Source: Methylocapsa sp. S129
GTDB lineage: Bacteria > Pseudomonadota > Alphaproteobacteria > Rhizobiales > Beijerinckiaceae
Assembly (NCBI RefSeq): GCF_009765995.1
Contig: NZ_LMUI01000059.1
Span: forward strand, 156,581-217,906
DNA: 61,326 nt
Direction: 5' to 3'
The notes beneath the pieces are model-generated. The model was given only the letters and a program-made list of their open reading frames with translations, did not search any database and was not told where the DNA came from. The stretch's first letter is position 1, and each line of letters begins with the position of its first letter. Positions 1-46,384 of this stretch are shown here, in pieces. The position numbers and the translations under genes were made by a program.

Positions 1-104
1 AATTACGGTGATGGTGTGGACGGCGCCCGCACCGGCATCTGGCTCGATTGAGAGCCGTGCCAAAATGGTTGTCGTTGAAGCGACCATTTGAAGGAGCGCC
101 GTCC

Positions 105-7935: not shown

Positions 7936-8050
7936 TTATCCCAAAGGATGACCTACGACAGACAGAACGACGTTCAGAACATTTCCGGCGTGGTTCTCGT
8001 TTCCAGGGCCATGGAGTATTGAGTCCGCAGGCATGACAGAGGAAACGAAA

Positions 8051-29514: not shown

Positions 29515-30315
29515 TCACGTCGTATAAACGCCGCCCGTCACATTGACGCCCTGCCCTGTCATGAAGCGCGCCGAATTGGAGCACAGGAATACAACCACAT
29601 CCGCCACATCTTCGGGCGCTTCCAGCCGGCCTAACGGCGTCTGGGCAATATATTCCTTGATCACCTGTTCGGGCGCGATCCCGCGCAGTTTGGCTTCCCA
29701 TTCGACCTCGCGCGTCTGCATGCTGGTTTTCACGAAGCCGGGACAGACGGCGTTGACGCGAATCCCTTTGGGCGCGAGTTCGCGCGCCAGCGCCTGCGTC
29801 CAGCCAAGCACGGCAAACTTGCTCGCCGAGTAATGAGCGAGCAGCGGCGCGCCGACTTTCGCCGCCAGCGAGGCGGTATTGACGATCGTCCCGCTTCCCG
29901 AATCGACAAAATGCCGAGCCGCGATCTGGTTCGAAAGAAAGACGCCGCGGGTATTGACGGCGAAATTGAAGTCCCACTCTTCATCCGTCAATTCCAGCGC
30001 ATGCCGCATCGTGGAAACGCCGGCGTTCGCCACCAAAATGTCGTAGCCGCCAAACATCCGCGCGACGCCGTCGAATCCCGCCTGCACCGATTCCCTTTGA
30101 CGCACGTCCACGGCAAAGGCGACAGCGCCGCCGCCAAGTTCATCGGCCGCGCGTTCCGCCGCCTTCTGATCGATGTCGCCAATGGCGACGCGCACCTCCT
30201 GGCGCGACAGCGCCGCCGCGATGGCGCGTCCGATTCCGGTCGCGCCGCCCGTTACGATCGCCCGCGCTCCCGCAAGTTCGGGGAATTTCGGATTGGCCGG
30301 CCCTGTATGCTCCAT
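29515..30315 (-). CDS. Short-chain dehydrogenase/reductase (SDR)
   Basis: A 266-aa classical SDR: TGGATGIGRAI cofactor site, VAIGDID, ILVANAGVSTM, Ser/Tyr/Lys site (NTASLAAKVGA, HYSASKFAV) and VCPGFVKTSM. The Asp in GDID after the second strand suggests NAD preference. ATG 30315 follows AAGGACTTCGCC; two earlier in-frame ATGs lack good sites. It is divergent from the BtpA-family gene across 319 bp, at the left edge of the catabolic island; a sugar or polyol substrate is likely but unproven. Confidence 0.82.
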   Translation of the reverse strand: MEHTGPANPKFPELAGARAIVTGGATGIGRAIAAALSRQEVRVAIGDIDQKAAERAADELGGGAVAFAVDVRQRESVQAGFDGVARMFGGYDILVANAGVSTMRHALELTDEEWDFNFAVNTRGVFLSNQIAARHFVDSGSGTIVNTASLAAKVGAPLLAHYSASKFAVLGWTQALARELAPKGIRVNAVCPGFVKTSMQTREVEWEAKLRGIAPEQVIKEYIAQTPLGRLEAPEDVADVVVFLCSNSARFMTGQGVNVTGGVYTT

Positions 30316-30634
30316 GGCGAAGTCCTTCATGCGAATGCCTGACATTCATATCAACAAGCGCGATCTTGACGGAAGCGGTTTCGTTTGAAATTGTGCGTTT
30401 AAGTGCTATTTCGGGCAGCGCAGCGCGTGTTTTTGCGCGAGCGGTCGCTGATTTCAGGTCGGGTCCATGCAACCAGCAGCGCGCGCGTCCTGCGTCTTCA
30501 GCGGACGGTCCAGATTTCAGCGCCTGCGGGATCGCTTTTCGCGCACGCGCTAGCCCCGCGCGCCGCCGACGGACGGATACCCGATCGCGGCGCGTTCTTT
30601 CATTCTCTTATGAAATTCCAGCATGGAGCATTCA

Positions 30635-31435
30635 ATGATTTTCGACTTCTTTGGCGCCAAGAAAAAGGCCGTTATCGCCATGGCCCATATCGGCGCCCTG
30701 CCCGGCTCGCCGCTTTATGACGCGGACGGCGGCGTCGACAAGTTGATCGAAGGCGTTTTGAAGGATGTCGAGCGCCTGCAAAAAGGAGGCGTCGACGCCG
30801 TCATGTTCGGCAATGAGAATGATCGCCCCTATGTCTTCAAGGCCGCCCCGGAGGGCGTCGCCGCCATGACGGCGGTGGTCCAGGCCGTCAAGCCCGTTTT
30901 GACCGTGCCGTTCGGCGTCAACTACCTCTGGGACCCCGTCGCCAGCATCGCGATCGGGGCGGCGACCGGCGCCAGATTCGTACGGGAGATTTTCACCGGC
31001 GTCTTTGCGTCGGACATGGGCGTCTGGCAGCCCGATTGCGCCGCCGCATCGCGTCTGCGCCATAATCTGGGCCGCGACGACATGAAGATGCTCTTCAACA
31101 TCAACGCCGAATTCGCCCATTCGCTGGATGCGCGTCCGATCGAATTGCGCGCCAGGAGCGCCCTCTTTTCCTCGCTCGCCGACGCTATTCTGGTGTCAGG
31201 GCCGATAACGGGCGAACCCGCCGATCAATCCGATCTGCAAAAGGTCTGCGCAACCGTCAAAGACATCCCCGTCTTCGCTAATACAGGCGTCAATATCGAC
31301 AATGTCCGCGACGTGCTGGCCATCGCCAGCGGCGTCGTCATCGGCACCCATTTCAAGATCGATGGCCACACCTGGAATGCGGTCGACGGCGAGCGCGTCA
31401 AGCGCTTCATGAATGTCGTGGAGACGCTGCGCTGA
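30635..31435 (+). CDS. BtpA/SgcQ-family TIM-barrel protein
   Basis: The 266-aa product matches the BtpA family: VIAMAHIGALPGSPLYDADG, GGVDAVMFGNENDRPYVF, VPFGVNYLWDPVASIAIGAA, FTGVFASDMGVWQPD and VFANTGVNIDNVRDVLAIAS. BtpA was named for a role in photosystem I assembly in cyanobacteria, but the family is widespread in non-phototrophs beside sugar and nucleoside genes (E. coli SgcQ), where its reaction is not established. ATG 30635 has GGAG eight bases upstream and is preferred over ATG 30623. Its 3' end overlaps that of the convergent amidase by 29 bp. Confidence 0.85.
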   Translation: MIFDFFGAKKKAVIAMAHIGALPGSPLYDADGGVDKLIEGVLKDVERLQKGGVDAVMFGNENDRPYVFKAAPEGVAAMTAVVQAVKPVLTVPFGVNYLWDPVASIAIGAATGARFVREIFTGVFASDMGVWQPDCAAASRLRHNLGRDDMKMLFNINAEFAHSLDARPIELRARSALFSSLADAILVSGPITGEPADQSDLQKVCATVKDIPVFANTGVNIDNVRDVLAIASGVVIGTHFKIDGHTWNAVDGERVKRFMNVVETLR

Positions 31436-32843
31436 CGCGCGGATAGGAATGGCCTGTGGCGCCGAGCGTCAATCCGGTACGCCGGTGGAATTTCGCCGCG
31501 ATCGAAGCCGCTTGCGACTCGGCAAAGCCAGGCGCCAAAAAGGTAACCCCGAGCGGCAACCCATCGGCGCGAAATCCATTGGGAACCGCGACGCCGCAGA
31601 GCCCCATCAGATTCACAAAATTGGTATAGATTCCAAGCTGCGCATTCAGCCGGATCGGATCAGCCGATATTTCGTCCTTGCGATAGATCGTCGGCGTCGT
31701 GGGAACCATCAGAACCTCGATGTGCTCCCAAACCGGCCGCACGGCGCATTTCAACTCGGCGATCCGATGAAAGGCCCGAAAAGCATCCTTCGCGGAATAT
31801 TGTCCGCTCTGCTCCAGAATCGCGAGCGTGACGGGATGGATATGGCTTCGGTGACGCTCCAGCACGGGGTCAAGGGTCAACGCGCGTTCCGCGATCCAGG
31901 GCCCATCGTAGAGGATGCGTTGCGTTTCCTCGAAAGCCGCGAAATCCACCTCCACCAACTCGCCGCCCATCTCGCCCATGCGAGCGACGGCTTCGCCGAA
32001 CAACCGCTCGGCCTCGATATCGCCAAAAAATCGAAGCGCGTCTCCCTTGGGGACGCCGAAGCGAAAATGCGCGGGCGGCGCTCCGACATCGAGCCGAACC
32101 TTATCCGCTTCGGGCCTGGAAAACGGATAGCTCGCGTCAAATCCCGCGATGCGTTCAAGAACCGCCATGCCGTCTTCGACGGTCAGCGCAAAAACCGACA
32201 CCGTCTCGATTGTCTTGACGCAGCCGCCGCCGCTGACGCAGGCGTTGCTGACGAGACCGGGCGTCGGCTTCACGCCGACGATATTGTTAAAGGCGGCGGG
32301 AACCCGGCCCGAGCCCGCGGCGTCATTGGCGATCGAGAAGCTGCACAGGCCCGCAGCGACGGAGACCGCGGATCCCGAGCTTGAACCACCCGAAATATAG
32401 TCTTCGCTAAAGACAGACGAACAGGCGCCATAGGGCGTGCGCATGCCCACCAGACCAATGCCGAATTGATCCATATTGGTCTTGCCGATCAATAAAGCGC
32501 CAGCATCGAACAGGCGCGTGATCGCCTGTCCGGTCGATTGCGCGATATAGGCGCCTTCCGGCAGGCCGTTGGTCGTCGGCAGGCCCGGAATATCGTTGCA
32601 GTCCTTCACCGAAAACGGGACGCCCCAGAGCGGGCGGCCGTCATAGCCCGCCGCCTCCAGCGTCCTGGCCGCGGCCAGCGCCTTTTCCCTGGCGACAAGA
32701 TGGATCCAGACGCTGTCCTCGCCGCGACGCGCAATGCGATCGTAGATCGCTTCGACGACCGCGCTCGGCTTGAGCGATCCCTTGGAGTAGGCGTCGCGCA
32801 GCGTCGAAAGATCAAGACTGCCCGTTTCATGGGACCAAACCAT
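31407..32843 (-). CDS. Amidase-signature enzyme, allophanate-hydrolase-like
   Basis: The 478-aa product starts like the amidase domain of allophanate hydrolases (AtzF): LRDAYSKGSLKPSAVVEAIY, SVWIHLVAREKALAAARTLE, GVPFSVKDCNDIPGLPTTNG. The Lys-Ser-Ser triad is intact: Lys in FSVKD, cis-Ser in YISGGSSSGSAV, and AAGSGRVPAAFNNIVGVKPT with the nucleophile Ser. The C-terminal domain of about 120 residues found in AtzF is missing. It lies ten bases after the degenerate cysteine-hydrolase gene in the set deoR - biuret-hydrolase-like - pseudo-hydrolase - amidase, so it probably takes the allophanate or a similar acyl-urea made by its neighbour. Confidence 0.82.
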   Translation of the reverse strand: MVWSHETGSLDLSTLRDAYSKGSLKPSAVVEAIYDRIARRGEDSVWIHLVAREKALAAARTLEAAGYDGRPLWGVPFSVKDCNDIPGLPTTNGLPEGAYIAQSTGQAITRLFDAGALLIGKTNMDQFGIGLVGMRTPYGACSSVFSEDYISGGSSSGSAVSVAAGLCSFSIANDAAGSGRVPAAFNNIVGVKPTPGLVSNACVSGGGCVKTIETVSVFALTVEDGMAVLERIAGFDASYPFSRPEADKVRLDVGAPPAHFRFGVPKGDALRFFGDIEAERLFGEAVARMGEMGGELVEVDFAAFEETQRILYDGPWIAERALTLDPVLERHRSHIHPVTLAILEQSGQYSAKDAFRAFHRIAELKCAVRPVWEHIEVLMVPTTPTIYRKDEISADPIRLNAQLGIYTNFVNLMGLCGVAVPNGFRADGLPLGVTFLAPGFAESQAASIAAKFHRRTGLTLGATGHSYPRVSAASPRHS

Positions 32844-32853
32844 CGCCTAGGCC

Positions 32854-33489
32854 TTATCCTTTTGAGGAAGGCGGCGCTTTCAACGCCGCAAGAACAGCCG
32901 CGCTATCGGCGACGGCGCCGAACAATCCGTTGCCGAAAGCAGTGATGCGCAATTGCGCCTCATGAAATCCGATCTGCGTCCCGGCGCAGGCGTCGGCGAT
33001 CGCCAGACATTCAAACCCATGATCGTTGGCCGCGCGCATGCTGGCGTGCATAAGACCGTCCGTCGGCAGGCCCGCGATCAGGAGATTGCGGATGCCGGCG
33101 ACGCGCAATTGGGCGGCAAGATCGGTCCGAAGAAACGCATTGTCGCCCGCATGATCGACGATCGGCTCTCCGCGGCGCGGCGCAAGCGCGTCAGCGATTC
33201 CGCTATTTGGCGGTACGTTCTCGCCTCCGTGTCTCGACGCCATAGGATTGGCGCCGGCGCCGAGCGTGCGGCGGGAAAAGATCACGCGAATCCTAGCCGA
33301 CCGAACCGCCGCCAGAATGCGCCCGGCGACCGCCGCCGCTTCCGCGGCGTCCAGCGTCGCGATGGCCTCGGTCTGAAATCCAAACAGCAGGTAGGCGGTC
33401 GTCCCTACCGACCATCGCCCGTCAAAAGGCCAGGGATAGGGATTGGCCGCAATTTGCGGAAAACAACTCTCGACGCCCGCTTCAGACAA
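32854..33489 (-). CDS. Degenerate isochorismatase-fold paralogue without catalytic residues
   Basis: The intact 211-aa frame starts with TTG 33489, overlapping the upstream stop as TTGTCTGA, with GGAG nine bases before it, so translation is coupled. The fold is clear (ANPYPWPFDGRWSVGTTAYL at the N-terminus, GIRNLLIAGLPTDGLMHASM, NDHGFECLAIADACAGT) and most resembles biuret-hydrolase-type cysteine hydrolases. All three catalytic positions are changed: the Asp of the usual IDMQ is Gly (LLFGFQTE), the Lys of PGKSSF is lost (AGDNAF), and the nucleophile Cys is Leu (TDGLMH). No stop or frameshift is present, so it is likely expressed as a non-catalytic partner or binding protein. Confidence 0.8.
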   Translation of the reverse strand: MSEAGVESCFPQIAANPYPWPFDGRWSVGTTAYLLFGFQTEAIATLDAAEAAAVAGRILAAVRSARIRVIFSRRTLGAGANPMASRHGGENVPPNSGIADALAPRRGEPIVDHAGDNAFLRTDLAAQLRVAGIRNLLIAGLPTDGLMHASMRAANDHGFECLAIADACAGTQIGFHEAQLRITAFGNGLFGAVADSAAVLAALKAPPSSKG

Positions 33490-34168
33490 GGCTGTCGGCT
33501 CCCAACGCGCGCAGAAGCGACTCGGAAGTCGCGACCGAACCCCAGCGTCCGCCAAACGCCTTGAGAATATCGAGCGTCGCCACGTGATTGCGCGTCTCCA
33601 CGGCCGCCGTGCAATCTTCGAGCAAAAGGCATTCAAAACCGCATTCGAAAGCATCGCGCATCGTCGATTGAACGCAGCAATCGGAAGTGACGCCCGTTAT
33701 GACCAGATGGGTCAGGCCGCGCGAGCGAAGTTGATCTTCGAGATCGGTCGCGTGGAACGAAGATTTGCCTGGCTTGTCGATGACGAGTTCGCCAGCGATC
33801 GGCGCCAATTCCGGCACGATTTGCCATCCGGGCTCGCCGCGCACCAGGATACGTCCTGTGGCGCCGCGATCGCCGATGCCCAACCCATGCGCGCGGGTCC
33901 GCCATTGCTTGTTGGCGGGCAGGTCGGACAGATCCGGTCTATGGCCCTCGCGCGTGTGAAAAACGGTCAGGCCGGCGTCCCGCGCAACATTCAATATGGC
34001 GCGGATCGGCTCAATCACAGACCGGGTGTTGCTGACATCTTCGCCGAGCTGATCGACCCATCCTCCGGGAGCGCAAAAATCGATCTGCATGTCGATGATC
34101 AGAAGGGCGATCCTCGCGTTATGCGCCGGCTCCGTACGCGGCCATAGAGATTTTCGCGCGCCCGTCAC
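33482..34168 (-). CDS. Biuret-hydrolase-like cysteine hydrolase (isochorismatase fold)
   Basis: The product has the triad of the family: Asp in ALLIIDMQIDFCAPGG, Lys in VIDKPGKSSFHATDLED, Cys in ITGVTSDCCVQSTMRDAF. The segments FHTREGHRPDLSDLPANKQW, GIGDRGATGRILVRGEPGW and FECGFECLLLEDCTAAV closely follow rhizobial biuret amidohydrolase (BiuH), which turns biuret into allophanate; triuret hydrolase is a related possibility. The start is uncertain: GTG 34168 gives 228 aa, while TTG 34216 would overlap the deoR end. The set continues with the degenerate paralogue and the allophanate-hydrolase-like amidase, consistent with a biuret-to-ammonia branch. Confidence 0.8.
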   Translation of the reverse strand: MTGARKSLWPRTEPAHNARIALLIIDMQIDFCAPGGWVDQLGEDVSNTRSVIEPIRAILNVARDAGLTVFHTREGHRPDLSDLPANKQWRTRAHGLGIGDRGATGRILVRGEPGWQIVPELAPIAGELVIDKPGKSSFHATDLEDQLRSRGLTHLVITGVTSDCCVQSTMRDAFECGFECLLLEDCTAAVETRNHVATLDILKAFGGRWGSVATSESLLRALGADSLV

Positions 34169-34199
34169 GGCTTTGCGTCTGTCGCGGTTCGCGCGCGGT

Positions 34200-35033
34200 T
34201 CATGTCGCGGCCACAATCACGCGAACCGCCGCCGCCGAAAGCGCTTCGGCGAGGTCGGCCGGCGGCGGCTGATCGGTGACCAAAATGTCCACCGCATCCA
34301 GGCTCGCAATGCGCGACAAAGCGCGGCGGCCGAATTTCGAGGCGTCGCATAGCACCACGACGCAATCGGCGCTTTCGATGAAGGCGCGCTTCACTTCAGT
34401 GTCTTCGGGCGAATAGTCGTAAAGGCCGGCCGCGTTGATGCCGGAAACGCCGATGAAGGCGCGATCGAGAAAGTGATTTTTGAGGTAGTTGGTCGCGTTG
34501 GCGCCGACGACGGAAAATTCCGGGATGCGCACCTCGCCGCCCAGGATATAGACGGGACTTCTGGCTTCCGCGAGCCGCATCGCGGCATGCATGCTGTTGG
34601 TGAACAGGATCAAGTCGTCGCGGGCGACGAGTTCGTCGACGAGCGTGATGATCGAGGTCCCGACATCCAGGCCGATCGATTCGCGCGGGCCGACGAGTTC
34701 CGCCGCCGCCCGGGCGATCGCGATCTTGGCGTCGGTGTTTTGCCGCAAGCGCTGTTCAAAAACCGGCTCGTCGGCGTCGAAACTCGAAGGATCGTTTTCT
34801 GACGGCGCGACGGCGCCCCCGTGTGTGCGCGTAAGAAGGCCCATCTGCGCGAGCACCACCAGATCTCGCCGGATCGTCATCGCCGATACGCCGATCTCCT
34901 GCGCCATATCCGTGACGGAAATGAATCCGTTGCGCTCGAACGCCGCCATGATCCGCGCATGCCGAACGGCGGCGAGCATACGGCCTTGGCTGGATGGATT
35001 AGAACCGGCAGCTATCGCGTCGTTTTTCGTCAT
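34200..35033 (-). CDS. DeoR/GlpR-family transcriptional regulator
   Basis: The 277-aa product has the DeoR helix-turn-helix at about residues 22-78 ([53 protein letters not shown]) and the DeoR sensor domain with [20 protein letters not shown] and [17 protein letters not shown]. Sensors of this class bind phosphorylated sugars. ATG 35033 follows GGAAGGGA. It is first in the minus-strand biuret/allophanate set and divergent from the ABC ATPase at 35203, so it probably controls both. Confidence 0.88.
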
Positions 35034-35202
35034 TCCCTTCCGTCCGCAACCTCGCCGCAGCAGTCGCGCCATGGGTCCCGGGGCTTTGCGAACGGGAGCG
35101 TGTTCAAACTCAAGCCCGCCAGACATAACATGGGTTTCAATGTCAGCAAATGTCCTTTATTGTTTTTATATGATAAATTTTGTTAAGTCGAAGGAAGCAA
35201 CG
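35034..35202. promoter_or_regulatory. Divergent control region between deoR and the ABC ATPase gene
   Basis: AT-rich from 35125 to 35185. AATGTC is repeated at 35139-35144 and 35149-35154, a 10-bp phased pair. The promoter region at 39519-39537 has a similarly phased ATGT pair on the minus strand, so both may be bound by the DeoR protein (inference). AAGGA precedes the ATPase start. Confidence 0.4.
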
Positions 35203-36294
35203 ATGCTGGGTCTTCGCCTGGATGGGGTGAGCAAGTCTTACGGCAAGGCGGAGGTGGTTTGCGGCGTCGATCTCGACGTCTCGCAAGGCGAGTTCGTCGT
35301 GATTCTCGGCCCGTCGGGATGCGGCAAGTCGACCCTTTTGCGCATGATCGCCGGCCTTGAGGACGTGTCGGCGGGCCAGATCGAGATCGCCGGCCAGATC
35401 GTCACGCATCTGCCGCCGCGCCGGCGGGAATGCGCGATGGTGTTTCAAAATTATGCGCTCTATCCCCATCTGACCGTTCGCGACAATATTGGCTATCCCC
35501 TGCATGTGGCGGGCGTCGCCAAAAGCGAGATCAAGGCGCGCGTCATCGAGGTCGCGCGGATCGTCAGCCTTGGCGATTATCTCGACCGCAAACCCTCGCA
35601 ACTCTCTGGCGGTCAGCGTCAGCGCGTCGCGATGGGACGCGCCATCGTCCGCAAGCCGAAATTGTTTCTGTTCGACGAACCGCTGTCCAACCTGGACGCC
35701 AAGCTCAGAGTTCAGATGCGCGCGGAAATTCGTCAGTTGCAGGAACGACTCGGCGTCACCTCGGTCTTCGTCACCCATGATCAGGTGGAAGCGATGACGC
35801 TCGCCGATCGGATCGTCGTCATGAACGCGGGGCGGATCGAACAGGTGGGGCCGCCGACCGAAGTCTACCGAAGGCCAGCCAGCCGCTATGTCGCGTCCTT
35901 CGTCGGCGCGCAGCCGATGAGCTTTCTCGACGGCTTCCTATCCAGTGACGGCGGCGGCCTCGAGATTCCCGGAGCCGGGTCGATTCCGTTGGGCTTCACG
36001 GCGCCGCCTGACGAGCGCGGCCGCCCTGTCGTCGTCGGCTTGCGCGCCGAGGCCGTACGGGTCGCGGGGCCGGAGACGGGAACCCTTCGCGGAACGGTCG
36101 TCTTTACCGAAGAACTCGGCCCCCATGCGATCCACCATGTCCAGGTCGGCGCCGTCGAAGTTCTCGCGCAAGGCGTCTCCGGAACTTTGCTCCATGACGC
36201 CAACGTCCTGCTCAGCGTCGAGGCGCCGGTTCATCTGTTTGAACCCAAGACGGGTCGACGCGTGGAATTCGACCCCGCCCTGGCGGCCGCGTAG
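35203..36294 (+). CDS. Carbohydrate ABC importer ATPase (MalK/UgpC-like)
   Basis: A 363-aa ATPase with Walker [20 protein letters not shown] loop [17 protein letters not shown], signature [20 protein letters not shown], Walker [17 protein letters not shown], and a C-terminal TOBE-type domain from about residue 240. This is the UgpC/MalK form that serves CUT1 sugar importers. ATG 35203 follows GAAGGAAGC. It is transcribed toward the permease genes, which lie on the opposite strand and with which it converges at 36294-36321; the three probably form one transporter with the binding protein at 38146. Confidence 0.92.
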
Positions 36295-36320
36295 GACAAA
36301 CGCCTGGCCTCGGCTTCAGA

Positions 36321-37148
36321 TCAGCTCATGCCTTTGGTCAGGCCCTGGACGAAATAGCGGTTGAGCAGCAGCGCCATCAGGATGATCGGCAGGGTCGAGA
36401 AATGCGCGAGCGCTCCCATCGTGCCCCAGGAGACGTCCTTGGTGCCATAGGCCGATAGAAGCGCGACCGAAAGCGGTTTCGAATCCCCGGTGGTCATGAA
36501 GGCGGGCGTGAGAAAATCGTTCCAGGCGAGCATGATGCTGAACAAGGCGCTGGCGATGACGCCCGGCATGACGAGCGGAATGCCCACGAAGAAGAAGGCC
36601 CCGAAAGCGGTGCGCCCGTCGAGTTGCGCCGCATATTCGGCTTCTGGCGGGACGGCGCGAAAATAGGAAAACATCATCCACACGACGAAGCCGGAGCTGA
36701 GCGTCGCATCCAGCAGGACCACCGACCAAACGGTCCCGAGGAGCCCGACGTCGCGCATGATCAGATAAAAGGGCATAAGCGTGACGACGCGCGGCATCAT
36801 CCTCACGGCGAGAAGACAATAGGCGATAGTGATTGCATGACGCGATCGACTGCGCGCGAGGGCGTAGCCGCCGGGAACGCCGAGCACGAGCGCCAAAGCG
36901 GTCGCGCCCAGGCTGATCGCGAGGCTGTTGTAGACAAGCTTGGAAATGTCGAACAGGCTGAACAGAACTCGAAAATTTTCAAGCGTAGGGGTGAAGAAAA
37001 GTTTCGGCGGCAAGCTGAATATGTCGACGGCGGGTTTGTAAGCGGTCGCGGCCAGCCAGACGACCGGCGCCAGGAATGCGACGACCGCCAGCGCGACGGC
37101 GGCGCTCTGGGCCGCTGAACTCAAGCGCCCGACGATCGTTCGATTCAT
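36321..37148 (-). CDS. Carbohydrate ABC permease (MalG-type)
   Basis: A 275-aa membrane protein with six hydrophobic helices and the coupling EAA-loop PPEAEYAAQLDGRTAFGAFF that meets the ATPase. The C-terminus LLLNRYFVQGLTKGMS is typical of CUT1 MalG-like permeases. Its ATG overlaps the stop of the MalF-type permease by four bases. Substrate unknown. Confidence 0.92.
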   Translation of the reverse strand: MNRTIVGRLSSAAQSAAVALAVVAFLAPVVWLAATAYKPAVDIFSLPPKLFFTPTLENFRVLFSLFDISKLVYNSLAISLGATALALVLGVPGGYALARSRSRHAITIAYCLLAVRMMPRVVTLMPFYLIMRDVGLLGTVWSVVLLDATLSSGFVVWMMFSYFRAVPPEAEYAAQLDGRTAFGAFFFVGIPLVMPGVIASALFSIMLAWNDFLTPAFMTTGDSKPLSVALLSAYGTKDVSWGTMGALAHFSTLPIILMALLLNRYFVQGLTKGMS

Positions 37149-38149
37149 GGCGCCGCCTTCCTGTCATAGCGGTTGATCAGAACGAAAAAGACGCTGGCCA
37201 TGACTGCGACAAGCGCCAGCATTAGAGCGGAAATCGCGCTGGCGGTTCCGATATTGAAGAATTCCAGACCCTCCTTGACGGCGCGGATCATCAGAACGTT
37301 TGTCGCGTCGCCCGGGCCGCCGTTGGTGGTCACATAAATCGTGTCGAACACCATCGACGCGTCGATGACGCGCAACAGGAGGGCGAGAAGAATCGTCGGC
37401 GTCATGACGGGGACGATGATGGTCGTAAACCGCTGCCAGGCAGTGGCGCCGTCCACCTCCGCCGCCTCCAGAAAGCTGGACGGGATGGACTTCAGGCCGG
37501 CGAGCAGAATGAGCATCATCAGCGGGGTCCATTGCCAGACATCCATCGCGACGATGGTCGCCAGCGCGGTCTGCGGCGAGCCGAGGAAGCCTCGCTCGCT
37601 GGAAATTCCAAGCACGCGCGCCCAATAGCCGATCGGGCCATAATCGGGCGTCAGAAGCGCGCGAAAAATCAGGCCGGTGGCCAGAGGCGTCACGGTCACC
37701 GGCACGAGAAGCAAGGCGAGGCTGACGCGGTTGATGAGCCGGTCGCGCCACAGCAACAGCGCAAGCGCAAATCCCGCGACGAACTCGAGGATCACCGCGC
37801 CGGCGACGAAGGCAAGCGTATTGAAGATGGCGGTTCTGGTGCTGGGATCGGTCCAGAGCGCGACATAATTCTCAAGACCCACAAACGCGGTTCGCTGCGG
37901 GCGCAACAGATTGTAGCGGAACAGGCTATAGCTCAGGCCGACGACCGCCGGCCAAACCGCGCAGGCGAGCACATAGAGGATCACCGGCGCCGTTAGGCAG
38001 AAGAAGAACAGCCGGCGCCGCGCTTCGAGGGGCTCTCCGGGCGGCAGGAGGCGCGCGCGCAATCCAAACCAATCGAAGGGGCCAGCGACAGCGAGAGCCG
38101 TCGCCGGCCGCTTCGGCGGGCCGGAGGAAGAAAATCCGGACTCCGTCAC
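37145..38149 (-). CDS. Carbohydrate ABC permease (MalF-type)
   Basis: A 334-aa membrane protein. After about 45 cytoplasmic residues the first helix begins (FFFCLTAPVILYVLACAVWP), with further helices through IFNTLAFVAGAVILEFVAGF and a coupling loop SIPSSFLEAAEVDGATAWQR. It pairs with the MalG-type gene, overlapping by four bases on each side with its neighbours (binding protein stop, MalG start), so the three are one operon. Confidence 0.92.
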   Translation of the reverse strand: MTESGFSSSGPPKRPATALAVAGPFDWFGLRARLLPPGEPLEARRRLFFFCLTAPVILYVLACAVWPAVVGLSYSLFRYNLLRPQRTAFVGLENYVALWTDPSTRTAIFNTLAFVAGAVILEFVAGFALALLLWRDRLINRVSLALLLVPVTVTPLATGLIFRALLTPDYGPIGYWARVLGISSERGFLGSPQTALATIVAMDVWQWTPLMMLILLAGLKSIPSSFLEAAEVDGATAWQRFTTIIVPVMTPTILLALLLRVIDASMVFDTIYVTTNGGPGDATNVLMIRAVKEGLEFFNIGTASAISALMLALVAVMASVFFVLINRYDRKAAP

Positions 38150-39429
38150 TCTTTGAAGACAGCCAACGCCCGGCTCTGCGCATCGTCAAGAGCGGCTTTC
38201 GGGTCGGAATTGCCGGCCAGCACCGCATTGACGGCCGAGCCCAGAATGTCCTGGATCTCTGGATATTCAGGGACGCGGGGACGGAAGTCGCCGTTGCCCT
38301 TTTCGAAGGATTCGCCGATCACCGGCAGGAACGGGAACATGGCGTTCAGCTCGGCGTCCTTGATGCTGCTCTTTCGAATGTAGCCGCCGCCGCCAAGCTT
38401 CGCGAGCTCCTTCTGGATCTCCGCGCTCGTCAGCCATTTGATGACCTTCCAGGCCGCCTCCTGGCGATCCTTGGTTATGTCGCCGTTGATCGACAATCCC
38501 CAGCCGCCGATGCCGTATTGCTGCGGCGCGCCTTGACCTGGCGGGGCCTTTACGACGGCGAATTTGCCGACAATTTTGGACTTGTCGGGATCGCCGTAGC
38601 TCGAGGCGCCGACCGACCAGGTCTGCATCGTGGCGGAAATGCCCTGACGGAAGGATTCCTCGCGCCCGCCCCAATCATAATCCACCGCGCCTGGAGGCGC
38701 AGCCTTGTCGAACAGAGCCTTGTAGACGGTGAGACTCTTGATGTTGGAGGGGGAATTGATCGCGGGCTTTCCGTCCTTGTCGAGAATGGATCCGCCCAGT
38801 TCCGCGTTATACTGCATCCAGTCCTGAGCGACGGCCGGCCCTTTCTGGCCATTGGCGACCCAACCATATTGGCCCTTCTTGCGATCGGTCAGTTTCTCGG
38901 CGTCCGCCTGCAATTCCTCCATGGTCGCCGGCGCCGCCAATCCGGCGGCGTCGAACAGGTCCTTGCGATAGACCAGCACATTGGCGTAGCCGGAGAACGG
39001 CATGGCGATCTGAACGCCCTTGTAATTGCCAAGGGAGTTCATCACTACGGGATAGATGTCGTCGGGTTTGATTTCGTCCTTGTCGCGCTTGATGAGCGCA
39101 TCGAGCGCGATCACATGGCCGCCCGTCGCATATTGACCCGATAGGACATTGTCCATCGTGATGATGTCGTAGCCTGCGGTATGGCCGATGAAATCGGCGG
39201 TGGTCTTGGTCATCAGCTCGCCGTAGTTCATGATGTCGACCTTGATGCCGACGCCGGTGTCTTTTTTGGCGCGATCGGCGAGCTTGGCCATGGCGGCCCC
39301 GAAGGGGTCGTTCATCGACGCGATGTTGAGGGTGATGTCCGCCGCCGCGGCGCCCGCCGCCTGGAAGCCAAGGAGAGCGACGGTCGAAAGAGCGATCCAT
39401 GCGGTTCTGCGATATCGGAGCATTTTCAT
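38146..39429 (-). CDS. Extracellular solute-binding protein, family 1 (CUT1 sugar type)
   Basis: A 427-aa periplasmic protein. Signal peptide AWIALSTVALLGFQAAGA ends near AAA; the mature part opens ITLNIASMNDPFGAAMAKLA, with YDIITMDNVLSGQYATGGHV, PFSGYANVLVYRKDLFDAAG and AAWKVIKWLTSAEIQKELAK, the usual cluster for MalE/UgpB-like proteins. Start ATG 39429 follows GGAGG at ten bases. First gene of the permease operon and divergent from the monooxygenase fusion across 159 bp. The ligand cannot be read from sequence. Confidence 0.88.
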   Translation of the reverse strand: MKMLRYRRTAWIALSTVALLGFQAAGAAAADITLNIASMNDPFGAAMAKLADRAKKDTGVGIKVDIMNYGELMTKTTADFIGHTAGYDIITMDNVLSGQYATGGHVIALDALIKRDKDEIKPDDIYPVVMNSLGNYKGVQIAMPFSGYANVLVYRKDLFDAAGLAAPATMEELQADAEKLTDRKKGQYGWVANGQKGPAVAQDWMQYNAELGGSILDKDGKPAINSPSNIKSLTVYKALFDKAAPPGAVDYDWGGREESFRQGISATMQTWSVGASSYGDPDKSKIVGKFAVVKAPPGQGAPQQYGIGGWGLSINGDITKDRQEAAWKVIKWLTSAEIQKELAKLGGGGYIRKSSIKDAELNAMFPFLPVIGESFEKGNGDFRPRVPEYPEIQDILGSAVNAVLAGNSDPKAALDDAQSRALAVFKE

Positions 39430-39588
39430 CTTCCACGCGCCTCCTCTAAGGGGGTTATCCCGACCTGCGTTGAAAACATAAAGCAAGTCACATGCCACTT
39501 GCAACAGGATCGAACTTGGTCAAACATAGTCAAACATTTCTAGACAACGAGCGATAGCAACAGGCGCTGCGCAAGAGACAGAGACTCG
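39430..39588. promoter_or_regulatory. Divergent control region, binding protein / monooxygenase fusion
   Basis: GCAAGT (39483-39488) and ACTTGC (39497-39502) form an inverted repeat with 8-bp spacing. GTCAAACAT is directly repeated at 39519-39527 and 39529-39537, a 10-bp phase. Both look like regulator sites; the direct repeat on the minus strand reads ATGTTTGAC twice, comparable with tandem DeoR-type sites. Confidence 0.45.
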
Positions 39589-42150
39589 ATGCTAAAGGCT
39601 GGGCAAAAGACCAAAAAAGAGGCGGCGGCGCCGAGGCCTAGCCGTAGCCGGCCCGCGCGCCGGCGTCTGGAAAGCGGGCCTTTGGACCGCCTGGCGGCTC
39701 ATGTCAGGGCCGACCTTGAGAAAATCGAATATCCGCCGCGCGCCTGGGTTCCCCCTCGCATCGGGCCGGATGGCGTTCCGGCCCTCGACGTTCTGGTGGT
39801 CGGAGCGGGCCTCAGCGGTCTCTCGATCGCTTTTGGATTGATGCGGCGACGCGTCTCCAACATCCTGGTGATTGACCGGAGCCCTGCGGGCAAAGAGGGC
39901 CCCTGGGTCACGCATGCCCGTATGGACGTCCTCAGATCGCCCAAGACTCTGTCCGGCCCCGACTTTGGCATTCCCAACCTCACGTACCGGTCGTGGCATG
40001 AGGCGAGATATGGAAGCCTCTCATGGGATCGCCTCGACAAGATCGATCGCCGCGATTGGATGGCCTATCTCGTCTGGTATCGCGACTTGCTCGCTTTGCC
40101 GGTCCGCAACGAAACTTCGCTTGAGGGGATCGCATCGCAGGACGATTGGCTCGCGCTGACGCTCGCCTCTCCCGAGGGCGCCCGCACGATCTATGCGCGC
40201 AAGCTGGTGCTCGCCACGGGCATCGACGGCGCCGGCGCGCCCTATGCGCCAGAAGAAATCGCGGCGCTGCCCAGATCAGTCTGGAGCCATAATGCGGATT
40301 CGATCGACGGCCCAGGTCTAGCAGGGCGACGCATCGCCATTTTGGGCGCCGGCGCCTCCGCGTTCGATTGCGCGGTCCATGCGCTGCAGCACGGCGCCGC
40401 GCAGGTCGCGCTCTATGCGCGCCGGACGACGTTGCCCCATGTCGAGGTGTTAGCCTGGTCGAACTTCCCCGGCTTCCTGACAAGCTTTGCCGATCTCCCC
40501 GATCGGCTGCGATGGAATTTCATGCGCCGCATGCGGGACCTGCAACCGCCACCGACGCAGACGATGTTCGATCGCGCCGCGCTCGATCCCCGCTTCGAAC
40601 TCAAGCTGGGCCATCGGCTCGACAGCGCGCGCATGGAGGGCGATGAGATTGTGCTCGTCGCCAACGGGGCGCCCCGACGCTTCGATCGCATTCTGGTCGC
40701 GACGGGATTTCGGACAGACCTGTCGCTTCGTCCCGAATTGGCTGGCGTGCGCGACGAAATTTGTCTCTGGCGCGACCGTTTTGTTCCCCCGCCCGGAGAG
40801 GACGACGAAGAGCTCGGCCGCCACCCTTATCTCGGCGCCGGCTTTCAACTGCAGTCGAAAAATCCCGCCGCCGCCGAGCTGCTGGGCAATATCCATCTGT
40901 TCAACGCCGGCGCTGTGCCGAGCGTCGGCCCGGTGTGCAACGGCGTCACAGGGCTTAAATATGGGACGCCAAGGGTCGTCGACGCGATAACCCGCGACCT
41001 GTTCCTGGAGGACGCCGACATGCATTACGACAAGCTGCTGGCGTTCGACGATCGGATGTTCGATGGCTCGGCGGACCGCATCAACGGTTTGCGCAGGGAA
41101 ACGCCGGCCGCCGATGATGGCGACCGGGCGGAGGCGCGAACGATCGCCGACCGGTTGATTGCCGACACGCGTCGCCAGAGCGCCGAATTCCCGGTGGATT
41201 TGGCGAACCACCTGCCGATGGTGATCGAAGCGTTGTTCCGCCTCGGCGCCTCGCCGGACCGGATGGCGGCCTATGCCGCCCATTACGACAAATTCCATGC
41301 GGTCCCGGCTCTCCGGCCGGCGAAAAAATCAATCGAGCGGGATAATTGGCGCGGCGCGCTCGGCGATCGGACCAGGGAGGCCGACTATCGCCGGTTTTTC
41401 GTGGATGAAGCGCGGCGGCTCGGCGGTTCGGCGGCCATTCGTCTCTATGTCCCCGAATTGTCGCGGGGCGTCGGCGCAAGCGCGCTGCATGGCCTGATGC
41501 GTCTTGCCTATGGCGCATTGCGAGGCGACGAAGCGGAGATCGGCGCGGCGCTTGGCTATTGGGCGACGACCTTTCTTCCCCTGCCTGAACCCTCCGGCGC
41601 TGCCGCGTCGACCGACGATCCCCTGGAGACGCTCGACCATATGCGCGCCGATCCCGCATTCGCCCGCGTCGAGATCAATTCTCCCATGCTTTGGCATTGG
41701 ATAGATGGCGTGGGCCACATGCCGGCCTTCGGCGCCATGATCGACCGGTTGGCGGTCGGCCCCGGCACGCTTGACCGCATCGCGCAGGCGTCTCTATCGC
41801 TTTACGCCGGCTCGATGAGCTTTGAGGCTCTGCATGCCGTCACCGGCAGCCACTGGCTTCGGCTCGTCGCCCCGCATATGGACGATCCGACGCCGCTGAT
41901 CCGGCACTTCTGGCAGGCGATTCTGTCGATCTATCCCAAAATAGGCATGCCCGCCGCTCCTGATGAAGCGCAGCTTGAGGAATGGCGGCGCCTTGTTCCG
42001 CCGCCGGCGGCGGCGATCGCGGCGGCGGCTGTCGCCTCCGATGATGAGCATGACCACAGCCTGGTGTTTTCCGCGTTTCAGGAGTTCGACCGCACGGGCG
42101 ACCCGCTTTATCGCATCGTTGCGGCTCGGCGCGTCGGCTTGATCGCATGA
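39589..42150 (+). CDS. Fusion: flavin-dependent monooxygenase + questin-oxidase-like domain
   Basis: An 853-aa protein. After a basic, disordered-looking 60 residues, a flavoprotein domain spans about 64-480: FAD site LDVLVVGAGLSGLSIAFGLM, the conserved PWVTHARMDVLRSPKTLSGP, the NADPH site RIAILGAGASAFDCAVHALQ, and DRILVATGFRTDLSLRPELA. From about 520 to 845 it matches the questin-oxidase-like family (AflY type, DUF4243): DLANHLPMVIEALFRLGASP, NWRGALGDRTREADYRRFFV, VGASALHGLMRLAYGALRGD, MSFEALHAVTGSHWLRLVAP. Fungal questin oxidases open an anthraquinone ring by Baeyer-Villiger chemistry. The fusion suggests a self-contained oxygenase for ring cleavage; substrate unknown. The stop overlaps the amidohydrolase start by four bases. 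Confidence 0.75.
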   Translation: MLKAGQKTKKEAAAPRPSRSRPARRRLESGPLDRLAAHVRADLEKIEYPPRAWVPPRIGPDGVPALDVLVVGAGLSGLSIAFGLMRRRVSNILVIDRSPAGKEGPWVTHARMDVLRSPKTLSGPDFGIPNLTYRSWHEARYGSLSWDRLDKIDRRDWMAYLVWYRDLLALPVRNETSLEGIASQDDWLALTLASPEGARTIYARKLVLATGIDGAGAPYAPEEIAALPRSVWSHNADSIDGPGLAGRRIAILGAGASAFDCAVHALQHGAAQVALYARRTTLPHVEVLAWSNFPGFLTSFADLPDRLRWNFMRRMRDLQPPPTQTMFDRAALDPRFELKLGHRLDSARMEGDEIVLVANGAPRRFDRILVATGFRTDLSLRPELAGVRDEICLWRDRFVPPPGEDDEELGRHPYLGAGFQLQSKNPAAAELLGNIHLFNAGAVPSVGPVCNGVTGLKYGTPRVVDAITRDLFLEDADMHYDKLLAFDDRMFDGSADRINGLRRETPAADDGDRAEARTIADRLIADTRRQSAEFPVDLANHLPMVIEALFRLGASPDRMAAYAAHYDKFHAVPALRPAKKSIERDNWRGALGDRTREADYRRFFVDEARRLGGSAAIRLYVPELSRGVGASALHGLMRLAYGALRGDEAEIGAALGYWATTFLPLPEPSGAAASTDDPLETLDHMRADPAFARVEINSPMLWHWIDGVGHMPAFGAMIDRLAVGPGTLDRIAQASLSLYAGSMSFEALHAVTGSHWLRLVAPHMDDPTPLIRHFWQAILSIYPKIGMPAAPDEAQLEEWRRLVPPPAAAIAAAAVASDDEHDHSLVFSAFQEFDRTGDPLYRIVAARRVGLIA

Positions 42151-43394
42151 AGCCAGCCTCGATCGATCTTCTGCGATGCCGGCTTGCGGGACGGAATGGC
42201 CTCTTCGACGTCGCGGTGCGCGAGGGGTTCATTCAGAGCATCGCGGAGGCCGGCGTGGCCTCGCCCCAGCAAGGCGCGCCGATCGAAAATCTCGACGGGC
42301 TGCTGCTTCTGCCCGCCTTGACCGACGGCCATATCCATCTCGACAAAACCTTTTTGGGGCTGGAATGGATGCCGCACATCAGCGGCGCCAGCATTGGCGA
42401 GCGCATAGAGGCGGAGCGGCGGCAAAGACAATCGGTCGGCGTTCCGATCGTGCGCCGCGCGGGCCTGTTGATCGAAAGAATCCTCGGCTTGGGCACTTTG
42501 GCGCTCCGATCGCATGTCGATGTGAGCGAAGAGATTGGCCTTGCGCATCTCGCAGCCTTGCTGGACGTCAGACAAAAATACGCCGATCTCGTCGACATCC
42601 AGTTTGTCGCTTTCCCGCAGAGCGGGATCAATTCGCGCGTCGCTGAACTCATGGACGAGGCGTTGCGGCTTGGCGCGGAGGTCGTCGGCGGCCTCGATCC
42701 CGCCGGCATTGACGGCGATGTCGAAGGCCATCTGGACACAGTGTTTGGACTGGCGGAGCGTCACGACTGTCGCGTGGATATTCATCTGCACGATCCCGGC
42801 TCGCTCGGCGCCTTCGAGCTGCGCCAGATCGCCAATCGTTCAGCCGCGCTTGGCCTGCAGGGGCGCGTTGCGGTCAGTCACGCCTTTGCGCTCGGCATGA
42901 TCGACGGATCGGAGCTCCGCACGACGCTTGCCGCTTTGGCGCGCGGCGGCGTCGCCATCATGACGAACGGTCCGGGGCCGGACGCCATCCCACCCGTCGC
43001 CCGTCTTGCCGAGGCGGGCGTGACCGTCTTCGCCGGTTCCGACAATATCCGGGACGCGTGGTCGCCCTTCGGCAGCGGCGATCTCCTTGAGCGCGCCCGG
43101 ATGATCGCCTATCGCGCCAATCTCCGCATGGACGGCCAGCTCCGTCTGGCGTTCGAACTCATTACCACGAACTCCAGAAAAGTTTTGGGCCTTTCGCCTG
43201 TCGCGGTTGAAGTCGGCGGCGTCGCCGATCTCATCGCGGTCGCCGCCGGCGACGTACCCGAAGCGGTGGCTTCCTTTCCACCCCGCCGTATCGTCCTCAA
43301 GCGCGGCGCAATCGTCGCCCGCGATGGTCGCGTCAACGTCGCCGGATTCGAACGTGGCGAAGACGCTACTCGCGCTGGCGCATGCGAATCTTGA
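42147..43394 (+). CDS. Amidohydrolase, cytosine-deaminase-like
   Basis: A 415-aa TIM-barrel metal hydrolase. Metal ligands: the His pair in LTDGHIHLDKTFLG, His in RVDIHLHDPGSLGAF, His in VAVSHAFALGMID, and Asp in VFAGSDNIRDAW; VDIQFVAFPQSGI and LELITTNSRKVLGL-like segments match the CodA group. CodA relatives deaminate or hydrolyse cyclic amidines and ureas such as cytosine, isoguanine and creatinine. It is coupled to the monooxygenase fusion by a four-base overlap, so both act on one pathway. Its 3' end overlaps the convergent aldehyde dehydrogenase by 29 bp. Confidence 0.83.
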   Translation: MKPASIDLLRCRLAGRNGLFDVAVREGFIQSIAEAGVASPQQGAPIENLDGLLLLPALTDGHIHLDKTFLGLEWMPHISGASIGERIEAERRQRQSVGVPIVRRAGLLIERILGLGTLALRSHVDVSEEIGLAHLAALLDVRQKYADLVDIQFVAFPQSGINSRVAELMDEALRLGAEVVGGLDPAGIDGDVEGHLDTVFGLAERHDCRVDIHLHDPGSLGAFELRQIANRSAALGLQGRVAVSHAFALGMIDGSELRTTLAALARGGVAIMTNGPGPDAIPPVARLAEAGVTVFAGSDNIRDAWSPFGSGDLLERARMIAYRANLRMDGQLRLAFELITTNSRKVLGLSPVAVEVGGVADLIAVAAGDVPEAVASFPPRRIVLKRGAIVARDGRVNVAGFERGEDATRAGACES

Positions 43395-44817
43395 TATGCT
43401 TCGACTCGCGAAAAGCCATCAGGCCTTCCGGGCCAAGCTCGCGGCCGACGCCCGACAATTTCCAGCCGCCGAAAGGCGCCTGAAGTTCGGTCGTGTCATT
43501 GATGTTGACGCCGACCGCGCCGGTCTCAAGACGCTCGGCGAAGGACCAGGCGCGCTCAAGATCGCGCGAATAGACATAGGCGGCGAGCCCAAACGGTAGC
43601 GCGTTGGCGACCGCCAACGCCTCAGCGTCGTCGCAAACGCGGCGGATGCCGGCGATCGGCCCGTAGCTTTCTTCGGTCATGACCAGCGCCGCGTCCGGCG
43701 CATCGTCGATCAGCGTCGGCTCGAAAAAGAAACCCTTGTCATAGGCCGAACTCCGCGGAGCCGCGCCGCCCACGAGGAGCTTTCCACCGCGACGCACGGC
43801 ATCGTCGGCATGTCTGACGGCGCGGCTGCGCACGCCCTCATGCAGCACCGGGCCGTATTGCACACCCGGCTCAACGCCATGGCCGAGCTTGATCCGCCGC
43901 GTCTCGGCGACAAGCGCCTCGACGAAGGAATCATGCACCCTGTCGGCGACAAGAATGCGATTCACCGCGATGCAGATCTGACCCATATTCGAGAAGGAGC
44001 GGCGCGCCGCCGCGGCGGCGGCCTCCACAACGTCAGCATCGTCAAGCACGACAAAGGGACATTGACCGCCAAGCTCCAATGTCAGGCGCTTCATATTGTC
44101 GGCGCCGGCCCGCATCATCGATTGCCCGGCGGCGACCGAGGCCGTCGCGGTGATCATAGCGACGCCAGGATGGGCGGCGAGAGCCGCGCCCGCTTCCGGG
44201 CCGGTTCCCGGCAGATCGTTCAGCACGCCGGGCGGCAGCCCCGCGTCGGCGAAGCATTGAACAATCATGGCGATCGCCAGCGGCGTCTCATGCGGCGGCT
44301 TGACGACGATCGTGCAACCCGCCGCCAGCGCGGGGCCGATTTTCCAGGCGTAAATATCGACCGGATAGTTCCATGGCGTGATCGCGCCGACGACGCCAAC
44401 CGGCGAGGAAACGACCAGGCTGCGGATATCGCGCCGGGACGAGGGCCGCAGCGAACCGCCAACGCGCTTCCCCTCCTCCGCATAATAGCGAATGACCTCG
44501 ACGCCGAAGCGAATTTCCTTCTCGGAATCCGGGATCGGTTTGCCCTGTTCACGCGTCAGCAAATCGGCAATTGCGGCAACGCGCTCTTCGATCAGATCGG
44601 CTGCGCGCTTCAATATTCTGGCGCGCTCGTCGGGATGCATATTCGCCCATGCGGGAAAAGCGCGCGCGGCGGCTTGGACGGCGCCGTCCACGTCGGCGGC
44701 GTTGGCGAGCGCCGTTGTCCCCACGAGATCTCCTGTCGCAGGGTCTTTGATCTCCAGGCGGCGGCCCGCGACGGACGGGCGCCATGCGCCGTCAATGAAA
44801 AGATTTCGCTCACGCAT
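43366..44817 (-). CDS. Aldehyde dehydrogenase
   Basis: A 482-aa ALDH with catalytic Cys in NMGQICIAVNR, Glu in LTLELGGQCPFVVLDDAD, NAD site VGVVGAITPWNYPVDIYAWK and C-terminal PFGGWKLSGVGRELGPEGLM. It is closest in feel to succinate-semialdehyde/aminobutyraldehyde-type enzymes; the usual Lys of ELGGKSP is Gln here. ATG 44817 follows AGAAAGG. Last gene of the operon that starts with the GntR and BMP genes, 14 bp after the SIS gene, so it probably oxidises an aldehyde produced from the imported compound. Confidence 0.9.
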   Translation of the reverse strand: MRERNLFIDGAWRPSVAGRRLEIKDPATGDLVGTTALANAADVDGAVQAAARAFPAWANMHPDERARILKRAADLIEERVAAIADLLTREQGKPIPDSEKEIRFGVEVIRYYAEEGKRVGGSLRPSSRRDIRSLVVSSPVGVVGAITPWNYPVDIYAWKIGPALAAGCTIVVKPPHETPLAIAMIVQCFADAGLPPGVLNDLPGTGPEAGAALAAHPGVAMITATASVAAGQSMMRAGADNMKRLTLELGGQCPFVVLDDADVVEAAAAAARRSFSNMGQICIAVNRILVADRVHDSFVEALVAETRRIKLGHGVEPGVQYGPVLHEGVRSRAVRHADDAVRRGGKLLVGGAAPRSSAYDKGFFFEPTLIDDAPDAALVMTEESYGPIAGIRRVCDDAEALAVANALPFGLAAYVYSRDLERAWSFAERLETGAVGVNINDTTELQAPFGGWKLSGVGRELGPEGLMAFRESKHIKIRMRQRE

Positions 44818-44831
44818 GATGTCGACCTTTC

Positions 44832-45599
44832 TCAACGCGCTTTCAGCCGGCGCCATAGCTCGTCGTAATTGCGGTCGTTCTTCTCGTTGGCGGACGCTTT
44901 GCCGGCGGTGTTGGGATTGACCATCACGAAGGGCTCGATGCCTCGCTGCACCAATTTTTCCGCCGTGGCGGAAACGATCGCATGCGCTATGGCGATCGTG
45001 ATGCTGGTCGAATTGGCGCCGACCGGCGCTTCCAAGCCATCGATGCGAAGCGACGCGTCGGCCAGCGGCACGCCGGTATCGATGACGATGTCCGCGACCT
45101 CAAAAAGCCGCTTGCCTGACGAATGGCGCGACGGACTCGCCGAGGAATGGGGCAGCGACGTTACGCCGACGACCTGCATCCCAAGCGCCTTGGCGCCCAG
45201 CGCGATATCGAGGATCACCGCATTGACGCCTGAATGCGAAAACAGGATCATCGTATCGGCGGGGTCAAGCTGATGAGAGCGCAGGATCGCTTTGCCATAA
45301 CCCTCGACTGCGTGAATGAAGCGATATTGGCGCGCGCCCATATCGCCCCAGACATGGTGAAACGAGATCATGGTGCTCTCGACGATCGGACGGAACCCGA
45401 CGATCGTTCCAGTGCGGGGGAAGCTTTCAAGCGCCGGCAATGCGCCATGGCCGGTGCCGAAAGTGAAAGCGAGCTTATCGTTCGCGATGGATTGCGCGCA
45501 AGCTTCCGCGGCGCGCCCGATCGCCTCGATCTGGGTTGTGCGGACGGTTTCAAGACGCTCGGCGAGCGACGCGAAATAGCGGTCGATGATTGAGGTCAA
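44832..45599 (-). CDS. SIS-domain phosphosugar-binding protein
   Basis: The 255-aa product has a single SIS fold: AFTFGTGHGALPALESFPRT near residue 44, MILFSHSGVNAVILDIALGA near 118, QVVGVTSLPHSSA and DIVIDTGVPLADASLRID. The layout resembles the COG4821 group, unlike sugar isomerases of the KpsF type; the reaction is unknown. TTG 45599 is the start, with GGAG seven bases before it. It lies 16 bp after the nucleoside phosphorylase gene, so a sugar phosphate released from a nucleoside is a plausible ligand. Confidence 0.83.
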   Translation of the reverse strand: MTSIIDRYFASLAERLETVRTTQIEAIGRAAEACAQSIANDKLAFTFGTGHGALPALESFPRTGTIVGFRPIVESTMISFHHVWGDMGARQYRFIHAVEGYGKAILRSHQLDPADTMILFSHSGVNAVILDIALGAKALGMQVVGVTSLPHSSASPSRHSSGKRLFEVADIVIDTGVPLADASLRIDGLEAPVGANSTSITIAIAHAIVSATAEKLVQRGIEPFVMVNPNTAGKASANEKNDRNYDELWRRLKAR

Positions 45600-45615
45600 A
45601 GAAAAGCTCCAGAAA

Positions 45616-46362: not shown

Positions 46363-46384
46363 TCCTCGGGTTTCCTTTCGTTGC

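Follow-up and report, generated by a model that had tools for sequence, protein, structure and literature searches.

A flavin monooxygenase fused to a PF14027 ring-cleaving dioxygenase domain in Methylocapsa, with a possible role in the breakdown of a ribityl heterocycle

What would a bacterium do with a flavin monooxygenase and a questin-oxidase-like domain joined in one chain? The question is raised by a gene (P0001) in a 61,326-nucleotide stretch of Methylocapsa sp. S129 DNA, the whole of which is called the window here. In a sequence-only reading of the window, the gene was taken for a two-domain fusion of 853 amino acids (aa) in a nitrogen-heterocycle setting, and for perhaps a new type of bacterial ring-cleaving oxygenase whose flavin half directly feeds the second half. 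The fusion is real and conserved, and probably of single origin. Our preferred reading, given a probability of roughly 45%, is that it acts as a one-chain two-step oxygenase, with an imported ribityl heterocycle oxidised and ring-opened and its nitrogen part mineralised. This reading was built on the fusion, the identities of its domains, the predicted folds, conserved motifs, a conserved locus and the ribitol-bound structure of a transport protein in a relative. The gene and its parts are as follows.

39589..42150, + strand: fusion gene (P0001), 853 aa, a single uninterrupted reading frame.
39769..41028, + strand: N half (residues ~61-480), class-B flavin monooxygenase with an N-hydroxylase-like fold, assigned from Pfam, glycine conservation and predicted fold.
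41029..41109, + strand: linker (residues ~481-507), with predicted local distance difference test (pLDDT) scores below 50 at residues 503-509.
41110..42147, + strand: C half (residues 508-853), PF14027 ring-cleaving dioxygenase domain.
41209..42051, + strand: codon span of the candidate iron site, H541, H634, H749, H755 and H821 (with T752 and D819), proposed from invariance in alignment.

The C-terminal PF14027 match on which the sequence-only reading hinged was present, covering residues 539-821 (Pfam; profile positions 2-332 of 340, 76.6 bits against a gathering cut-off of 27, E 3.5e-21). The N half was matched by general FAD/NAD(P) (flavin and nicotinamide dinucleotide) families (PF13454, 1.5e-10; PF13434, 6.3e-10; PF13738, 6.1e-9), and the two-domain architecture was thus borne out. 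No NCBIfam model was reached by the N half at its cut-off, the best being ArsO (NF040505; 36.6 against 425 bits). Both dinucleotide-binding motifs were present in the 36-row flavin-half alignment, with G72, G74 and G253 kept in 36/36 rows and G77 in 35/36. H234 was also invariant (36/36), with flanking letters that deviate from the flavin monooxygenase fingerprint motif, FxGxxxHxxx(Y/F). Conservation in the C half was read from 91 PF14027 rows, the window domain being entered twice, and H541, H634, H749, H755 and H821 (with T752 and D819) were invariant in all 91. These five histidines are candidate iron-site residues on sequence grounds, and putative metal ligands. H749/T752 aligned with H296/T299 of the fungal questin oxidase BTG13, the correspondence to the fungal histidine being seen only in that alignment; the BTG13 T299V mutant has a crystal structure.

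An AlphaFold model of the fusion was made from an alignment (A3) of 79 rows, comprising the window protein, the L087 protein at full length, 34 of the 45 remaining non-redundant flavin rows and 43 of the 62 remaining PF14027 rows. Mean pLDDT was 91.6, with values below 50 at residues 1-28 and 503-509, and the predicted template modelling score (pTM) was 0.60. In the predicted structure the N half has a class-B flavin monooxygenase fold and the C half the fold shared by PF14027 and ring-cleaving dioxygenases (BTG13, GedK, PaD). Either hydroxylation or reduction of the ring is conceivable for the flavin half, with the modelled fold leaning to the former.

An order-level sample of 397 genomes (Rhizobiales) and a phylum-level sample of 398 were searched. 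PF14027 was present in 29 of the former and 5 of the latter (4 above the cut-off). Devosia riboflavina is a riboflavin degrader, and in its genus group 5 of 75 genomes were matched by the PF14027 alignment. Four of the 29 carried the flavin half in the same open frame (868-907 aa). Besides the window's, these one-frame fusions are those of G045, G129 and G121 (open frames of 893-907 aa), and the other copies share 62-66% identity with that of the window. The four fused PF14027 halves formed one clade in a tree of 83 domains (Shimodaira-Hasegawa-like approximate likelihood ratio test, SH-aLRT, 89), as did the four fused flavin halves in a tree of 69 (SH-aLRT 100), so that one fusion event suffices. 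The flavin genes of L097 (internal stop) and L111 (short) were omitted from the latter tree, and L081 (internal stop) from alignment A2. Separate adjoining genes are the usual arrangement, which would favour two genes having been joined by error; since the fusion is open in four separate genomes and falls in a single clade in either tree, a frameshift, sequencing or assembly artefact was ruled out and its likelihood is put at practically nil.

The best 80 of 274 loci were named and analysed. A flavin gene lay within 1 kb of the PF14027 gene in 47 of them (31 on the same strand, 16 opposite), was farther off but within the flank in 12, and was absent from the flank in 21, several of which sit on short contigs (L140 and L147, for example). 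Among the 31 same-strand pairs L087 was open through, and the other 30 were separated by a stop or a frame change. On rhizobial plasmids the pair is annotated as 'NAD(P)/FAD-dependent oxidoreductase' adjoining 'questin oxidase family protein'; among 328 plasmid records with a match to some stretch of the fusion, at least 45 have 80% or more of it covered in one place, and all 40 plasmid rows among the matches listed were in two or more pieces at an identity below 60%. Because they are paired in loci and on plasmids, the two enzymes belong to one process in varied arrangements. A search of 18 chosen genomes, all with a PF14027 gene, gave a flavin-half match (E<=1e-3) in 12, those in G003 and G231 being weak or partial only.

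The literature searched on the fusion and on the dioxygenase yielded no account of a flavin monooxygenase joined to PF14027. The domain had been introduced as best known from fungi; fungal members exist, and the order sample, the plasmid records and MinC place it in bacteria as well. MinC, of minimycin/oxazinomycin biosynthesis, is a bacterial DUF4243 (PF14027) domain whose reported substrate is a sugar-bound N-heterocycle (section 6 of PMC8724604). Given this occurrence across bacteria and MinC, the ring-cleaving dioxygenase is an already known type and the novelty is its fusion to a flavin monooxygenase; of the proposed new oxygenase type, the ring-cleaving guess stood and the newness shrank to the fusion.

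The fusion lies near one end of a run of genes at 29515-43394, from a short-chain dehydrogenase through an amidohydrolase.

42147..43394, + strand: amidohydrolase, cytosine deaminase/AtzC-like (PRK05985, 485.5 against 408 bits; best PDB match 6nbo, 276 bits).
38146..39504, - strand: ATP-binding cassette (ABC) transporter substrate-binding protein, relative of the ribitol-bound 5IAI (568 bits).
37145..38149, - strand: ABC transporter permease 1.
36321..37148, - strand: ABC transporter permease 2.
35200..36294, + strand: ABC transporter ATPase, the conserved part of a called open reading frame (ORF) at 34591-36294; alignments begin near ORF residue 204.
34200..35126, - strand: DeoR-type regulator.
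33482..34216, - strand: BiuH1, biuret-hydrolase-like cysteine hydrolase, D/K/C triad kept (best PDB match 6xjm, 274 bits).
32854..33654, - strand: BiuH2, BiuH1 paralogue without the catalytic residues; called start overlaps BiuH1.
31407..32843, - strand: allophanate-hydrolase-like amidase, 478 aa (best PDB match 4cp8, 402 bits).
30623..31435, + strand: BtpA/SgcQ family protein (TIGR00259, 249.6 against 153.4).
29515..30345, - strand: short-chain dehydrogenase (SDR).

At 42147 the fusion's stop codon overlaps the amidohydrolase start by four bases, as had been read from the letters alone, and the families of the neighbours support the nitrogen-heterocycle setting. The scanned neighbours (transport, hydrolase, regulator and sugar genes) include no polyketide or anthraquinone genes, which speaks against a questin oxidase in the strict sense; an anthraquinone/polyketide role was ruled out. 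The amidase reached PRK08186 (523.8 against 487) and missed TIGR02713 (491.6 against 511.05); it has 478 aa in the window, and its relatives have 608 in L096 and 476 in L122. Biuret-hydrolase-like proteins are common (129 of the 397 genomes at E<=1e-50), and BiuH1 relatives at 69-76% identity were found in five other genomes, every one within this locus.

Counts of locus content were taken from 60 of the named loci with full flanks, at an identity of at least 35%. Neighbours of PF14027 were the transport protein (49), flavin gene (47), amidohydrolase (42), FGGY kinase (40), SDR (38), DeoR (37), BtpA (35) and an 8-oxoguanine-deaminase-like gene (10). An FGGY kinase 68% identical to the L096 one is located in the window's own genome, outside the window. 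Plasmid pWSM1274_3 holds a compact set of gamma-glutamyltransferase, FGGY, BtpA, DeoR, SDR, ABC transporter, flavin gene, PF14027 gene, amidohydrolase, 8-oxoguanine deaminase and amidohydrolase.

The best solved relative of the window transport protein is 5IAI, which holds ribitol at 1.6 A resolution according to Table 1 of PMC8468352. In Rhizobium rhizogenes NBRC 13257 (L088), a transport protein identical to 5IAI save one residue and a tag-like start, as read by eye from the alignment, stands beside a flavin gene, PF14027, SDR, DeoR, BiuH and amidase. Orthologues (E<=1e-80) were found in 23 of the 397 genomes, at 59-74% identity with the window's own set aside. All 23 are among the 29 genomes with PF14027, and in 21 the gene lies within 6 kb of PF14027; the transporter therefore goes with the dioxygenase. 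In G220 the PF14027 gene is cut by contig ends, one piece adjoining its transport protein. Our best guess is that the transport protein grips a ribityl-like group.

Riboflavin, ribityllumazine and 5-amino-6-ribitylaminouracil are natural ribityl heterocycles, all pyrimidinediones whose ribityl-bearing nitrogen is on the carbon next to N1. From import through biuret, we infer the following steps. A ribityl-tailed fused pyrimidinedione of the riboflavin, lumazine or 5-amino-6-ribitylaminouracil type would be imported by the ABC transporter. The NADPH- and FAD-dependent N half would oxygenate the heterocycle or keep it reduced, and the C half, a non-heme-iron dioxygenase, would add O2 across the electron-rich enediamine bond, C4a-C10a (flavin numbering) or C5-C6, so that the ring opens. 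Opening would expose an N3-C2-N1-C10a-N10 biuret chain with an oxalyl-type amide as its cap. Such a product would need the hydrolases of the locus: the AtzC-like amidohydrolase would hydrolyse the acyl-N bond left, and the biuret-hydrolase-like and allophanate-hydrolase-like enzymes would mineralise the nitrogen part. The sugar-alcohol part would be taken by SDR, FGGY kinase and BtpA, and the fusion would hold an unstable intermediate between two active sites. The full route, undescribed in bacteria, of ribityl-binding import, a flavoenzyme step, BTG13-type C4a-C10a cleavage and departure of the pyrimidine as (ribityl)biuret, with both oxygenations on one chain in the window, seems rather unlikely.

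Several observations weigh against this reading. The catalysis and substrate assigned to the fusion are predictions, and at a pTM of 0.60 the placement of the two halves relative to each other is unsure. The ribitol in the crystal may be a stand-in ligand, and in G092 the transporter locus is 4.5 Mb from the PF14027 gene. Fewer than half of the 60 loci have the biuret-type hydrolases inside the flank (BiuH1 24, BiuH2 19, amidase 18). BiuH1 keeps its triad at a score below the curated biuret-hydrolase cut-off (NF050097; 301.9 against 370 bits) and is not a clean locus subgroup, Kaistia-type in-locus copies (55-58% identical) being no closer than copies elsewhere. Five divergent loci (L073, L079, L082, L085 and L086) gave no match to the locus hydrolases. 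Among the scanned window locus genes, none resembled a dimethylbenzene-ring-breaking or known riboflavin catabolism gene, no systematic search being made, and no flavin mononucleotide riboswitch was found at gathering score in the window, L088, L096, L101 or L122. The flavin half was absent at E<=1e-3 from 6 of the 18 chosen PF14027 genomes.

That last absence also argues against obligatory electron supply between the halves. According to section 3.1 of a review (PMC9890505), fungal ring cleavage takes an NADPH enzyme together with a dioxygenase whose substrate is the hydroquinone; the description is of reduced substrate plus O2 and not of electron transfer to the dioxygenase. On these two grounds the evidence sits better with both halves acting in turn on one substrate, and the direct feeding of the second half by the flavin half, as first suggested, was unsupported. 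The flavin half could instead be an NADPH reductase that keeps the substrate hydroquinone-like for the dioxygenase, a one-chain form of fungal GedF + GedK; we consider this possible, on the unlikely side. That one half is vestigial, the fusion being a plain monooxygenase or a plain dioxygenase, is very improbable: loci that lack a flavin gene do show that a dioxygenase half can exist by itself, but invariant family residues are kept in both halves and the fusion persists in four genomes at the identities given above.

A different substrate for the same enzyme type has to be weighed more closely. The 8-oxoguanine-deaminase-like genes of some loci suit a ring of the amino-purine or amino-pyrimidine type (8-oxoguanine/urate, a pterin, 5-hydroxy-6-aminouracil) instead of a ribityl heterocycle, the ribitol of 5IAI then being incidental. 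C5=C6 cleavage (C4=C5 in urate) would likewise leave a biuret or triuret chain, and a triuret/biuret/allophanate operon is reported from R. leguminosarum (PMC7948467). In Devosia a deaminase-family member (577 bits, cut-off 532) adjoins the flavin gene, another is annotated on pWSM1274_3, and amidohydrolase-family genes occur in all three Pfam-scanned divergent loci (L069, L075, L161). Such a deaminase is nevertheless missing at 35% identity from 50 of the 60 full-flank loci and from the scanned window locus genes; the five divergent loci without hydrolase matches have none to the window's amidohydrolase, the family context being varied; and the ribitol-solved transporter relative and the SDR, FGGY kinase and DeoR set are left unexplained. 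An amino-ring substrate is accordingly a minority possibility. Vicine/convicine aglycones were considered, several of the bacteria with the locus being nodulators of Vicia; the papers found on them concern food, feed and medicine, the locus also occurs in Kaistia, Devosia and other bacteria, and these aglycones are retained only within the amino-ring alternative.

Partners vary among divergent PF14027 loci (L161 and L069 among them), with a creatininase-family hydrolase, amidohydrolases or a luciferase-type monooxygenase; the family therefore need not share one substrate, and seems to serve several N-heterocycle pathways. The L069 PF14027 protein (7941-9866, - strand; 641 aa) has ~300 extra N-terminal residues without a Pfam match at E<=1e-5, possibly another fusion or a wrong start. 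In L040/L081 (G209:C731) a stop codon interrupts the PF14027 gene on a contig of low third-position G+C. Gamma-glutamyltransferase-family genes stand at the locus in Devosia (L074, 2332-3906, -) and Rhizobium WSM1274 (L171, 3455-5014, -). Some 10 kb from the pair on pWSM1274_3 (L171, 25515-27663) are a Rieske protein, a ring-hydroxylating dioxygenase alpha subunit and a glutathione S-transferase; a BMP-type transporter is also near.

In BiuH2, a conserved paralogue of isochorismatase fold, the catalytic cysteine and lysine are missing in 24/24 rows (window and 23 loci; the L163 match, at 33% identity, was omitted), and the first triad aspartate is retained only in L104, L110, L122 and L123 (D/K/C naming partly from PMC7948467). 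BiuH2 is possibly a pseudoenzyme partner of the adjoining BiuH1. Next door at 43366-52310 (-) is a second cluster (aldehyde dehydrogenase, SIS sugar isomerase, PNP/UDP phosphorylase, PfkB kinase, isochorismatase and BMP-type ABC transporter) that looks like nucleoside-type catabolism. Two short overlapping ORFs at window 48-637 (+) resemble a broken transposase, presumably IS110-like.

Ring-cleaving dioxygenases of this fold are known chiefly from fungal pigments and toxins, and here one belongs to a widespread rhizobial catabolic locus. A natural fusion indicates which two enzymes cooperate, and with defined partners and a ligand-bound transport protein structure the role of bacterial questin-oxidase-like proteins narrows to a short testable list of substrates. 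If the preferred reading is true, the locus may show soil and root bacteria recycling vitamin B2-type compounds.

BTG13 opens the anthraquinone ring at an iron held by four histidines and a carboxylated lysine. This dioxygenase of Cercospora sp. (PDB 7y3w/x/y; 17% identity) stands alone and takes a fungal polyketide substrate, whereas the window's domain is joined to a flavin monooxygenase and lies in a bacterial catabolic locus. The hydroquinone dioxygenase PaD (8z4q) and a fungal non-heme iron dioxygenase named AflY (8yxs) are likewise stand-alone fungal enzymes with other substrates. The questin oxygenase GedF + GedK of Aspergillus terreus has the same two-component logic of NADPH enzyme and ring-cleaving dioxygenase, but as two proteins in a polyketide gene cluster; GedK is described as cofactor-free in a review (PMC9890505). 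The N-hydroxylating monooxygenases PvdA, KtzI and SidA show 13-18% identity and act on free amino acids or diamines. In MinC the PF14027 domain is also fused to another enzyme, in that case a HAD phosphatase in a biosynthetic pathway. The separate rhizobial pair is in the same kind of locus and at 47-51% identity in the records listed, as two genes where the window has one.
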